30,820 nucleotides of DNA, from IMG/VR virus record IMGVR_UViG_3300008107_001532, positions 1 through 30,820 of that record; one strand, 5' to 3'. The notes under the pieces are model-generated. The model searched no databases. It saw only the letters and a program-made list of their open reading frames with translations, and was not told the origin of the DNA. Each line of letters starts with the position of its first letter. The stretch's first letter is position 1. Positions 22,441 to 26,589 of the stretch are shown piece by piece. This DNA comes from a virus. Position numbers and translations under genes: made by a program.

Positions 22441-22465
22441 TAATAAAAACAAAATGGAGAGTAAG

Positions 22466-22912
22466 ATGGCAGAAGAAATTAAAAGCGAAAGCGAAACGAA
22501 AAAAGAAGATTGGATGAACTCTAAGTGGCGTCCAATGATGGGTTGGATGTACATGGTAGTGTGTATGATGGACATGGTGGTATTTCCAGTATTGTGGAGT
22601 TTGCTACAGGCAACTACCCATGGTTCAGTTAATACACAATGGAACCCACTAACGCTACAAGGTGCTGGTTTATTCCACATCGCCATGGGTGCAGTACTAG
22701 GTATCGCAGCATTCGGTCGTACGCAAGAAAAGATGGCAGGAGCAAACAATGGTGGTATGCAACCTGTGGCACAAAGCGTCATTACAACATATGGAACACC
22801 CCAAGTAGCACCTGCCCCAATCGCTCCACCAACAGTCAGACCAGTACCAAGACAACCAGTACTGGAGTTGGAACCAGACGATCCACCAACAAGAAACACT
22901 AGGAACGATTAA
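22466..22912 (+). CDS. Putative holin-like membrane protein
   Basis: A 148-residue protein with a charged N-terminus (EIKSESETKKEDW), two hydrophobic segments (about residues 24-47, MGWMYMVVCMMDMVVFPVLW, and 62-84, LTLQGAGLFHIAMGAVLGIA) and a cytoplasmic-type proline-rich tail that ends in acidic and Arg residues. The SKWRPMMGW opening and GAVLGIAAFGRTQEK after the last helix fit the small holins of the GTA/3TM holin type in phages of this group. The start is ATG 22466 (GGAGAG 5 to 10 bases upstream) and not the frame-open ATG at 22418, which lies inside gp54. The stop overlaps the gp16 start (TAATG). The holin role is inferred from topology; another membrane role is possible. Confidence 0.55.
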   Translation: MAEEIKSESETKKEDWMNSKWRPMMGWMYMVVCMMDMVVFPVLWSLLQATTHGSVNTQWNPLTLQGAGLFHIAMGAVLGIAAFGRTQEKMAGANNGGMQPVAQSVITTYGTPQVAPAPIAPPTVRPVPRQPVLELEPDDPPTRNTRND

Positions 22913-23343: not shown

Positions 23344-24057
23344 ATGGCACTACCGATTCAGAAAACCGCAATATACACACTTACCATTCCTTCTACCAAG
23401 AAGACTGTTAAGTACCGACCGTTCTTAGTTAAAGAACAAAAGTCTTTGTTGATTGCGCAACAAAGCGAAGATACAACCATTATGTTAGATACACTAAAGT
23501 CTCTAATCACAAGTTGTGTTCTTGACAAGATTGAAATAGATGACCTTGCAATGTTTGACATTGAGTACATCTTTTCCCAGATTCGAGCTAAGTCTGTGGG
23601 AGAAACTGTAGATCTTATCTTACGCTGTGACACCTGCGAAGATGAGAAAGCTAAAGTAAAGATTAGTATAGACTTAACTAAGTTAGTTGTAGAGACACCA
23701 GAAGGGCATGATAGAAACATCAAGTTGTTTGATGACGTTGGCGTAATTATGAAGTATCCTTCTCTTGACTTAGTTAAACGACTAGAAAACCTTAGCACAG
23801 AAGATGTTGAAGCAGTGTTTGAAGTTGTTGTCCACTCAATTGACACCATCTACGCTGGCGAAGAAGTTCACTATGCCAAAGATTACACGAAAGATGAGAT
23901 GAATGCGTTTCTTGATAGTCTTACGCAAGATCAGTTCAAGAAGATTCAAGGATTCTTTGAGACAATGCCGTCTCTAGAGAAACGATTAGATTATAAATGT
24001 CCAATGTGTTCCAAAGAACAGTCAGTCTTAGTAAAGGGACTTGACAGTTTTTTTTAA
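23344..24057 (+). CDS. 26: Baseplate hub assembly protein gp26 (T4_baseplate family), 0-frame product
   Basis: A 237-residue member of the T4 base plate gp26 family, needed for assembly of the central hub. Features are an N-terminal beta segment (TAIYTLTIPSTKKTVKYRPF), a helix with KEQKSLLIAQQSED, and two CxxC pairs, C95/C98 (RCDTCEDE) and C219/C222 (KCPMCSKE), that could hold a metal. AAGGAT lies upstream of the ATG inside the gp16 end. Its last codons AGT TTT TTT TAA lie in a run of eight T at 24048-24055. A -1 slip there enters the gp51 frame. In lambda-like and P2-like phages the gene before the tape measure makes two products in exactly this manner, so gp26 may be a tail assembly chaperone equivalent. 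Confidence 0.85.
   Translation: MALPIQKTAIYTLTIPSTKKTVKYRPFLVKEQKSLLIAQQSEDTTIMLDTLKSLITSCVLDKIEIDDLAMFDIEYIFSQIRAKSVGETVDLILRCDTCEDEKAKVKISIDLTKLVVETPEGHDRNIKLFDDVGVIMKYPSLDLVKRLENLSTEDVEAVFEVVVHSIDTIYAGEEVHYAKDYTKDEMNAFLDSLTQDQFKKIQGFFETMPSLEKRLDYKCPMCSKEQSVLVKGLDSFF
24033..24055 (+). promoter_or_regulatory. Candidate -1 programmed frameshift site (gp26 to gp51)
   Basis: The slippery heptamer T TTT TTT (24048-24054) is in register with the gp26 codons and followed at once by the stop TAA. The SD-like tract AAAGGG (24033-24038) ends 9 bases before it, a spacing like that of the dnaX frameshift enhancer. Slippage by -1 reads TTA ATT AAC and continues for 62 codons into gp51. I see no strong stimulatory hairpin downstream. 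Function is inferred. Confidence 0.6.
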
Positions 24058-24242
24058 TTAACCTTTGTCATGAGGATTTGTCCAATTACTATAAGATGAA
24101 CTTCGCCATGATTCAATATCACAAATATGCGCTTAGTGATATTGAAGATATGATTCCGTTTGAGAGAGACGTTTATGTAGCGCTGTTAATCCAGTATCTA
24201 GAAGAAGAAAAACAAAGACAAAAAGAACAGGCTAACCGATGA
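24054..24242 (+). CDS. 51: gp51-like hub assembly catalyst domain, probably expressed as gp26-gp51 frameshift fusion
   Basis: This frame follows gp26 and encodes CHEDLSNYYKMNFAMIQYHK, then ALSDIEDMIPFERDVYVALL and a charged tail LEEEKQRQKEQANR, which I recognise as the gp51 region of distant T4-like phages (gp51 is next to gp26 in T4 too). The conserved part begins upstream of the first ATG (24096), which has no Shine-Dalgarno tract at useful distance and would yield only 48 residues. With -1 slippage in the T run the product is a 299-residue gp26-gp51 fusion (237 + 62). The stop overlaps the start of the next gene (ATGA at 24239-24242), so readers of this frame would feed ribosomes directly into the tape-measure gene. 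Coordinates here are those of the shifted frame. Confidence 0.65.
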   Translation, partial: LINLCHEDLSNYYKMNFAMIQYHKYALSDIEDMIPFERDVYVALLIQYLEEEKQRQKEQANR

Positions 24243-26542
24243 CAAAGGCAGCAATTACCAAATTATCCGACTACAAAGCCAAGATGGGTGGAATGCCAAT
24301 CACGGCACAAGCACATAATGAAGGTGTAGCGGATAAACTTGCAAAAGACTCAGTGGAAGTTGAGAAGAAAAATCTTAGCGCCACTGAGATTCTTAACATG
24401 ACGCTTAAGAATTTAACTAGTACTATTAAGGAACAGATTAAATCTCAAGGTGGTGTTCAAGGTGCAGTTGGAGATAAAGCAGACAAAGTTAAATCATACA
24501 AAGGCGCAGGTGGTGCAGTTAAAGAACGTGTCGATGACTTCAAGAAGTTATTCACACTACGTGGCTTCTTAGATAAGACTGGTATCGTCAAGAAGGGTAG
24601 TACTGGTTTCATTAGTGGTATCGCTGATGCTGCTCTTGAGAAACGTGAAGCCAGACAAGAATATGTTAAAGACCGTCTAAACGTAGACAAGAATTACGTC
24701 AAAGGTATTGGTGGAGGTGAGGCTAAGGCTTCTAAAACTTTCGCAAGTCAGTTTGACAAGGGTAATGATGCACTTATAAAAGTGCAAGAGAATAACAAAG
24801 CCATGGCTGGTTTAGCTGATCGTGGCTTTACTGGTGCACAGGTTGGTAGATCGACAGAAGCTGGTAATCAAGCTGGTCTTGAAGCAAATCTAGCCAAGGC
24901 AGACAGTAGATTCCGTGAAGGTGTTGCAAGAACCCCAAGCGGTCAACCGCAAGTTCAGAAAGCACCTTCTGGTAAAACTAGCGATAACGTAATTCCTCTC
25001 TTTAAGAAACAAGATAAAGAAGAATCGAGTGGTGTATCTGATGCATTTTCCACCAGCGAAGAAGAGATGGAAAATGCAAGGCTCATGGCTTTGCAAACAG
25101 ACACTTTAATTAAGATTGAAGAGAACACTCGTATTGGTGGTAAAGTTTCTGCTGGCGATGACGACAAGAAAAAAGAATCTGGTGGTTTGCTTGGGAATTT
25201 GCTTGGTGGTCCAAAGAAGTTCTTGTCTGGGTTAATATCAAGTTTAATGGGTGTGCTATCCAGCGTTGGTAGCATGTTAATGACTGGTCTAACTGCAGCA
25301 TTAAAATTCTTATTCAATCCTAAGATGCTGATGAAGTTATTCAGTAAAGTACTACTACCATTAGCAATCGTTGGTTCGATAGTCAACGGTCTGATGGATG
25401 GCTTCAAGGTATTCATGGACGGTGGATCTATCGGAGATGCACTTATCGCTGGTCTTGGTGGTATGTTAGAATTCTTAACCTTTGGTTTGATCGATGCCAA
25501 GGTTATTGGTAACGTAGTAGAATGGTTAACTGGTTTCGTTGATGAGTGGATTATTGAACCGATAACCAACTTCTTTAACTTCTTAGGTGAAGCATTTAAT
25601 ACATACATCGCTGAACCTATTAGTGCAGCATTTGAAATGGTTGGTAACCTGTTCACAGAATATATCTTGAATCCATTGAAAGAAATCTTTGCACCGATTG
25701 CAAATTTCTTCAAGAAGATTAAAGATCAAGTATTTGGTTTCCTTGAAGACTTTGGTATACCTGAAATTGGTTTTACCATTCCTATTATCAATAAGAAAGT
25801 TTCTGTTGGACCATTCTATCCGTTCCGACCAGATAAAGGTGAGAACCGTGTAGGCGGTTCATCAAGTTCTTCGATGTCTGAGAGTTCAAAAGGTGAATCC
25901 TCTGAATTTAAACAAAGTGTTGTTACTAGCGGTGGTACTGAGTCTTCAGCTGATCGTACTAACGAAACAGCAGCCCAGAAACGAAGACGAGATGAATGGG
26001 CGAAGGACAAAACCAATGTTCTGGACACTCGTGAGAAAGTTGTTGATGGTAAAGCTACATATAGTCAAAATTTAGCAACCTTCGATCCAGCTACTGGTAA
26101 GTCAACTCTATCTGGAGACGCAGCTGGACAAGAAGGTGAACGTGAGATTAGTAAACGTGCATTTAGTAATATCAAATCAAACGCTTTAAAGGGTAATAAA
26201 CAAGAAGTTGCTGAGATTGTAAAAGAGGATGATGCTTATCAGAAACTTAGCTGGTTCGATAAACGTAAAGTTGACGTTGGTTACGCTAAGGCAGTAGACT
26301 TAGCTCCAGCAGATAAAGGTGCGATACAAGGCGATATGCCTAAGGCTGCGAATAAAGTTTCTACTGATTCTAAAGCAGTTGAAGCAGGTAAGGCTACTCC
26401 AGCGCCAGCAGTTACTACAACTGTTGTTAACAACAGCAAGGTATCAAACCAGAAAGCTACTACTGCAGTTTCTGCACCTCAGCCAAGAAACTATGACAAT
26501 AGATCTTACTACGGTCAGGGTGTGAACAGCGACACTTGGTAA
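24239..26542 (+). CDS. 29: Probable tape-measure / baseplate hub protein (gp29-like)
   Basis: A 767-residue protein directly after gp26-gp51, the place of a tape-measure gene. The N-terminal third (1-300) is charged, helical and Gly/Lys rich; residues about 315-510 form a long hydrophobic and amphipathic region (LLGNLLGGPKKFLSGLISSL ... FLFNPKMLMKLFSKVLLPL ... FGLIDAKVIGNVVEWLTGF), as in tape-measure proteins that insert in the host envelope; the C-terminal third is Ser/Lys/Asp rich and ends with a TTVVNNSKVSNQ stretch and PQPRNYDNRSYYGQG. T4 gp29 has 590 residues; I could not align it directly, so the call is by position and architecture. It is coupled to gp51 by ATGA and ends 18 bases before a strong terminator. 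Confidence 0.6.
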   Translation: MTKAAITKLSDYKAKMGGMPITAQAHNEGVADKLAKDSVEVEKKNLSATEILNMTLKNLTSTIKEQIKSQGGVQGAVGDKADKVKSYKGAGGAVKERVDDFKKLFTLRGFLDKTGIVKKGSTGFISGIADAALEKREARQEYVKDRLNVDKNYVKGIGGGEAKASKTFASQFDKGNDALIKVQENNKAMAGLADRGFTGAQVGRSTEAGNQAGLEANLAKADSRFREGVARTPSGQPQVQKAPSGKTSDNVIPLFKKQDKEESSGVSDAFSTSEEEMENARLMALQTDTLIKIEENTRIGGKVSAGDDDKKKESGGLLGNLLGGPKKFLSGLISSLMGVLSSVGSMLMTGLTAALKFLFNPKMLMKLFSKVLLPLAIVGSIVNGLMDGFKVFMDGGSIGDALIAGLGGMLEFLTFGLIDAKVIGNVVEWLTGFVDEWIIEPITNFFNFLGEAFNTYIAEPISAAFEMVGNLFTEYILNPLKEIFAPIANFFKKIKDQVFGFLEDFGIPEIGFTIPIINKKVSVGPFYPFRPDKGENRVGGSSSSSMSESSKGESSEFKQSVVTSGGTESSADRTNETAAQKRRRDEWAKDKTNVLDTREKVVDGKATYSQNLATFDPATGKSTLSGDAAGQEGEREISKRAFSNIKSNALKGNKQEVAEIVKEDDAYQKLSWFDKRKVDVGYAKAVDLAPADKGAIQGDMPKAANKVSTDSKAVEAGKATPAPAVTTTVVNNSKVSNQKATTAVSAPQPRNYDNRSYYGQGVNSDTW

Positions 26543-26560: not shown

Positions 26561-26589
26561 AAAGGGAGACCGAAGTCTCCCTTTTTTTT
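26561..26589. terminator. Bidirectional rho-independent terminator between convergent operons
   Basis: A perfect 10-bp stem (AAAGGGAGAC / GTCTCCCTTT) closes on a 4-base loop. On the plus strand the loop is CGAA and the stem runs into eight T, which ends the gp29-like transcript. On the minus strand the loop is TTCG closed by C-G, the very stable UUCG tetraloop, followed by TTTTTC, which ends the gp32 transcript. Confidence 0.9.

Follow-up and report, generated by a model that had tools for sequence, protein, structure and literature searches.

A probable programmed -1 frameshift joining gp26 to gp51, ahead of the putative tape-measure gene, in T4-like phages

The gp26-gp51 junction

The window, i.e. 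the whole stretch of DNA analysed here, is a 30,820-base record of an uncultivated virus (an assembled virus fragment). It carries a gp26-like gene which is followed, in the -1 frame, by a gp51 domain and then by a putative tape-measure gene. The features of the locus are as follows.

23344..24057, + strand: gp26-like gene, the short form (G-like), 237 aa; PF12322 / phrog_150 (Pfam E 1.1e-61, PHROG E 1.9e-65)
24033..24038, + strand: AAAGGG, an internal Shine-Dalgarno-like (SD-like) block 9 nt 5' of the heptamer; read directly, with a similar block in 71/78 relatives
24045..24239, + strand: open stretch of the -1 frame, bounded on its 5' side by the -1 frame TGA at 24042-24044
24048..24054, + strand: candidate slippery heptamer T TTT TTT in the gp26 register; read directly, with T TTT TTN in 143/145 non-redundant relatives
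24055..24057, + strand: gp26 stop codon TAA, abutting the heptamer; read from the sequence
24054..24242, + strand: gp51 domain in the -1 frame, 62 aa plus stop codon TGA (24240-24242), the predicted C-terminal part of the long form (GT-like); phrog_634 (E 2.5e-27), C-terminus of phrog_150 (E 2.1e-5), and alignment
24239..26542, + strand: putative tape-measure gene, 767 aa, whose ATG overlaps the gp51 stop; phrog_4200 (E 2.5e-4, weak), position and size

The Pfam match of the gp26 part is PF12322 (T4_baseplate). Read directly, the gene ends AGT TTT TTT TAA, and its zero frame therefore presents an X XXY YYZ heptamer in the proper register at 24048-24054. An earlier note on this DNA had described this gene end, the in-register T TTT TTT, the AAAGGG 9 bases 5' of it and the open -1 frame with its gp51 domain, and all of these details hold. 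Because the -1 frame is closed by TGA at 24042-24044, any shift is confined to the last three or so gp26 codons. The phrog_634 family matched by the -1 frame is labelled "baseplate hub assembly catalyst", while the longer phrog_150 profile already covers the fused form, its C-terminus matching the -1 frame. The long form is predicted to have 299 aa, the 237-residue gp26 plus 62 residues from the -1 frame.

The run of eight T at the end of gp26 (24048-24055) is one of only two on the + strand of the window. The second, at 26582-26589, lies 40 nt 3' of the tape-measure stop, and a terminator scan found no stem ahead of it. Elsewhere within the structural cluster, between the tail-tube and small terminase genes, positions 22463-22909 encode a holin-like protein (GTA_holin_3TM, 3.3e-7; phrog_3427).

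Conservation of the frame and of the heptamer

A first scan with the window protein as query yielded 80 viral contigs, and every one that continues past gp26 has the gp51 domain in the -1 frame. With further seeds (S-PM2, KVP40-type, Sinorhizobium, Ackermannviridae, T4 and Stenotrophomonas) and the addition of annotated phages, a total of 269 loci was analysed. A recognisable gp51 domain follows gp26 in 235 of them, and in all 235 it lies in the -1 frame. Two representative sets were drawn, one of 145 loci at 90% identity, the other of 78 at 70% identity. T TTT TTN is in register in 143 of the 145, as 87 TTC, 52 TTT, 3 TTG and 1 TTA; this count includes one locus (L226) whose heptamer lies further 5' of its stop and was spotted by inspection. 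The junction alignment that the earlier note had called for thus came out as it foresaw, and the contrary case that it had named, a gp51 in an arbitrary frame behind a good ribosome-binding site (RBS), is found at none of the loci analysed. The site also occurs in Kyanoviridae, phage phiM12, Pootjesviridae (T TTT TTG), KVP40-type Vibrio phages, Menderavirus and a Variovorax phage.

Elsewhere in the gp26 genes, 67% of the Phe codons are TTT. Given the amino acids and the codon usage of each gene, a T at every third position has a joint probability of 10^-37 for the 78 representatives or 10^-67 for 142. On this comparison, chance as the cause of the heptamer and -1 frame arrangement in the window is out of the question. 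Nor does a homopolymer error in sequencing or assembly, which would turn a single fused reading frame into two, appear credible to us in any degree worth weighing. Such errors are common in homopolymers, and the window comes from an assembly, but the same -1 relation recurs in 235 independent loci, including the isolates S-PM2 and P-SSM2 whose runs have six T. These comparative data already refute such an error.

The two representatives that lack T TTT TTN are L253, of the Ackermannviridae, and L265, with a T4-type gp51 in a broken frame. The latter is a T4-type phage record in which the gp51 frame is broken inside the gene, the remainder being in the -1 frame; the break is probably a sequence error or a mutation. 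More broadly, the Ackermannviridae (L090, L242-L256) and Vibrio phage D531 (L091) have a gp51-like domain at -1, but their junctions, which read GAG ATT TTC ATT TAA or CTT TTC AAG TAA, contain no X XXY YYZ heptamer. Since the Ackermannviridae domain is not preceded by a start codon, a non-canonical recoding site is possible there.

Start codons for a free gp51

In the window, the first start codon of the -1 frame is TTG 24078, with GAGG 2 nt upstream, which is too close. The first ATG, at 24096, has no SD sequence and is located 39 nt 3' of the gp26 stop, inside the conserved gp51 domain; later ATGs are at 24108 and 24150. In an alignment of the gp51 domain the residues upstream of 24096 are conserved, bearing out the earlier observation that part of the domain precedes an ATG devoid of an RBS. 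Among window-type relatives, divergence over the 13 codons between the stop and this ATG is 0.29, 0.22 and 0.50 at -1 frame positions 1, 2 and 3, which indicates that these codons are translated in the -1 frame. Among the 145 representatives, 86 have no ATG ahead of the gp51 domain core and 50 have no ATG, GTG or TTG. The downstream coding frame thus lies at -1 in all 235 loci, is conserved as protein and, in these 50 representatives, has no start codon of its own.

These data bear on the alternative that gp51 is a separate small protein, made by translational coupling or reinitiation past the gp26 stop, the -1 frame being a mere tight overlap. Many cyanophage gp51 sequences are annotated as genes of their own in the databases, and in phiM12, phiM9, RHph_I9, ValKK3, K566 and BUCT608 the gp26 stop shares bases with a -1 frame ATG (TGATG or TAATG). 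In phages of this kind (phiM12, phiM9, ValKK3, BUCT608) a free gp51 could also be made by reinitiation. However, a separate gp51 leaves the conserved in-register heptamer unexplained, and it fits poorly with the startless representatives and with the position of the first ATG in the window. We regard it as very improbable. As for annotation, the records of S-WAM1 (L083), S-SSM4 (L082), ACG-2014d and ORM_20 (L095) leave the gp51 frame unannotated, so that an empty stretch seems to separate gp26 from the gene that follows.

Stimulatory elements

Of the 78 representatives, 71 have an SD-like purine block 5-20 nt 5' of the heptamer, versus 9% of control windows. A conserved Glu-Gly accounts for part of this signal. 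Within the block, Glu, Lys and Arg codons ending in G number 35, against 19.7 expected (z 4.4); this excess among synonymous choices points to selection on the RNA.

The length of the T run and the purine block also bear on transcriptional slippage, which would generate a mixed pool of mRNA, some copies fusing the two frames. The window has eight T, as do 45 of the 143 relatives. On the other hand, 91 of the 143 have exactly six, a length below that of known cases of efficient slippage, and eight is the maximum; moreover, an SD-like block acts on ribosomes rather than on RNA polymerase. Slippage during transcription thus seems more remote still than a separately translated gp51.

Downstream of the site, the window has no supported RNA structure (z -0.3). 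A downstream hairpin for the window group was considered and dropped, the mean z being -0.49 versus -0.41 for controls. A hairpin is supported in the phages with T TTT TTC (mean z -1.33 versus -0.46 for controls). S-PM2 (L093, after 2711), L122, L119 and P-SSM2 (L096) carry perfect or near-perfect hairpins of about 10-16 bp, some 9 nt past T TTT TTC. The stem sequences vary among these four, as expected for a frameshift-stimulating structure. An Rfam search returned no matches. The candidate stimulatory element of the window group is the SD-like block; a hairpin is confined to some of the cyanophages with T TTT TTC. The arrangement resembles that of E. coli dnaX in its upstream SD-like block and slippery heptamer, to which some cyanophages add the downstream hairpin. 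It differs in having a U-run heptamer instead of an A-run and, in the window, in the lack of a supported hairpin.

T4 gp26 and gp51

T4 gp26 consists of PF12322 alone over its whole length and corresponds to the short form. T4 gp51 carries PF12322 over residues 1-201, with the gp51 domain C-terminal to it, as seen from profile matches, hhalign (2.4e-5) and alignment. It is thus a relative of the long form, with both domains fused. T4 genes 26 and 51 are separate and divergently transcribed, and T4 itself has no frameshift here. Despite this difference, T4 obtains from two genes the same two products, short and long, that a frameshift would give in the window phage. T4 gp51 is reported to be required for assembly but missing from the particle (PMC3004832). 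In a tree, each T4 type forms a strongly supported group apart from the frameshift set; the root is a midpoint root, so the tree leaves undecided which of the frameshift and two-gene states came first.

A pair of tail assembly chaperones

A second chaperone form made by frameshifting is common to most long-tailed phages. As in lambda G/GT and P2 E/E', the candidate shift in the window falls close to the 3' end of its short gene, directly before the presumed tape-measure gene, and would add a C-terminal domain. The P2 heptamer, T TTT TTG, recurs in Pootjesviridae (for the sites of P2 and lambda, PMC5009743). The window differs from both systems in the small size of the added domain (62 residues) and in a shift site located exactly at the stop. 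The 24239-26542 reading frame is a putative tape-measure gene on the strength of weak profile matches, size and position; its equivalent in ValKK3 matches the tape-measure family phrog_58 (1.6e-6).

Unlike the layout, the sequences offer no detectable link with lambda. Lambda gpG does not match gp26 (hhalign probability 0.1), a search of solved structures by sequence gave no PDB match at E 0.001, and Foldseek against the PDB with a model of T4-type gp51 (pLDDT 91) gave none. A BFVD search with a model of the window gp26 (pLDDT 88) returned mostly proteins of the same family, which carry the annotation baseplate hub. Likeness in sequence or fold to lambda gpG or other known chaperones was thus not found. 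Distant chaperone families often have no detectable sequence likeness, and the missing gpG match therefore weakens the case for common descent only. The G/GT comparison drawn in the earlier note stands for gene order and for the short and long forms of T4, but fails for likeness to gpG or to solved structures; it concerns function and layout, not shared descent. The T4 short/long pair and the place of the genes before the putative tape-measure gene support a tail assembly chaperone of the G/GT type. In the window the two forms, with a common N-terminal domain, are deduced by frameshift; in T4 they are two genes. The earlier proposal that gp26 and gp51 are the tail-chaperone pair of T4-like phages is supported by this pair together with heptamer conservation and gene order.

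Taken as a whole, these sequence data make it very probable that the gp26 junction is a programmed -1 frameshift yielding short and long tail assembly chaperones in the manner of lambda G/GT. Ribosomes translating gp26 would reach T TTT TTT right at the stop, and the internal AAAGGG about nine bases 5' would pair with 16S rRNA and strain the ribosome. A minority of ribosomes would then slip back by one base and escape the TAA; their product, extended by the 62 residues of the gp51 domain, would be the 299-residue long form, made alongside the 237-residue short one. The two forms would be tail assembly chaperones, functional equivalents of lambda gpG and gpGT. The part that they share may coat the tape-measure protein encoded by the next gene, and the extra part of the long form may recruit tail-tube subunits. 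The heptamer, the frame and the purine block are conserved, usable starts are lacking, and T4 has its short and long paralogues; from these we infer the slippage itself, its rate and the chaperone role.

Earlier reports and significance

Vladimirov et al. (2022) identified tail chaperone genes of T4-like phages which, judging by the title of that paper, belong to the same gene family and have the same role. Two later texts cite it. In the relevant passage of PMC10885494, some T4-like phages are said to encode the short form and a long fusion in two separate genes, and that of PMC12846349 (2025) refers to poly-T sequences as -1 frameshift signals in the TAC-N genes of T4-like phages. Our keyword searches of the literature found no open paper that directly describes the gp26/gp51 frameshift. 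It appears, then, that frameshifting in the T4-like group has already been reported. The statement in the earlier note that no such report was known is overtaken by these citations, and a claim of novelty is probably not valid. What is new here is the scale, the selection at the level of the SD-like block, the cyanophage hairpins and the exceptions.

One may speculate further that the -1 shift is widespread, perhaps ancestral, outside the T4 subgroup, that T4 relatives replaced it by two genes, that the Ackermannviridae retain the -1 frame, using a non-canonical site, that the cyanophage sites are three-part signals like that of dnaX, and that all of this is absent from the 2022 paper. We hold this full picture to be rather unlikely, though well short of negligible, and judge with similar reserve that important parts of the frameshift system have so far gone undocumented.

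A 2016 review singled out T4 ("except T4") when describing the conservation of the G-T frameshift among long-tailed phages (PMC5009743). In contrast, most of the T4-like phages sampled here, the abundant marine ones especially, have the signal, and T4 keeps both chaperone products as separate genes. A practical consequence is that gp51 has been missed or mis-started in many genomes. The hub-assembly genes 26 and 51 of T4, puzzling so far, would gain a concrete and testable role.
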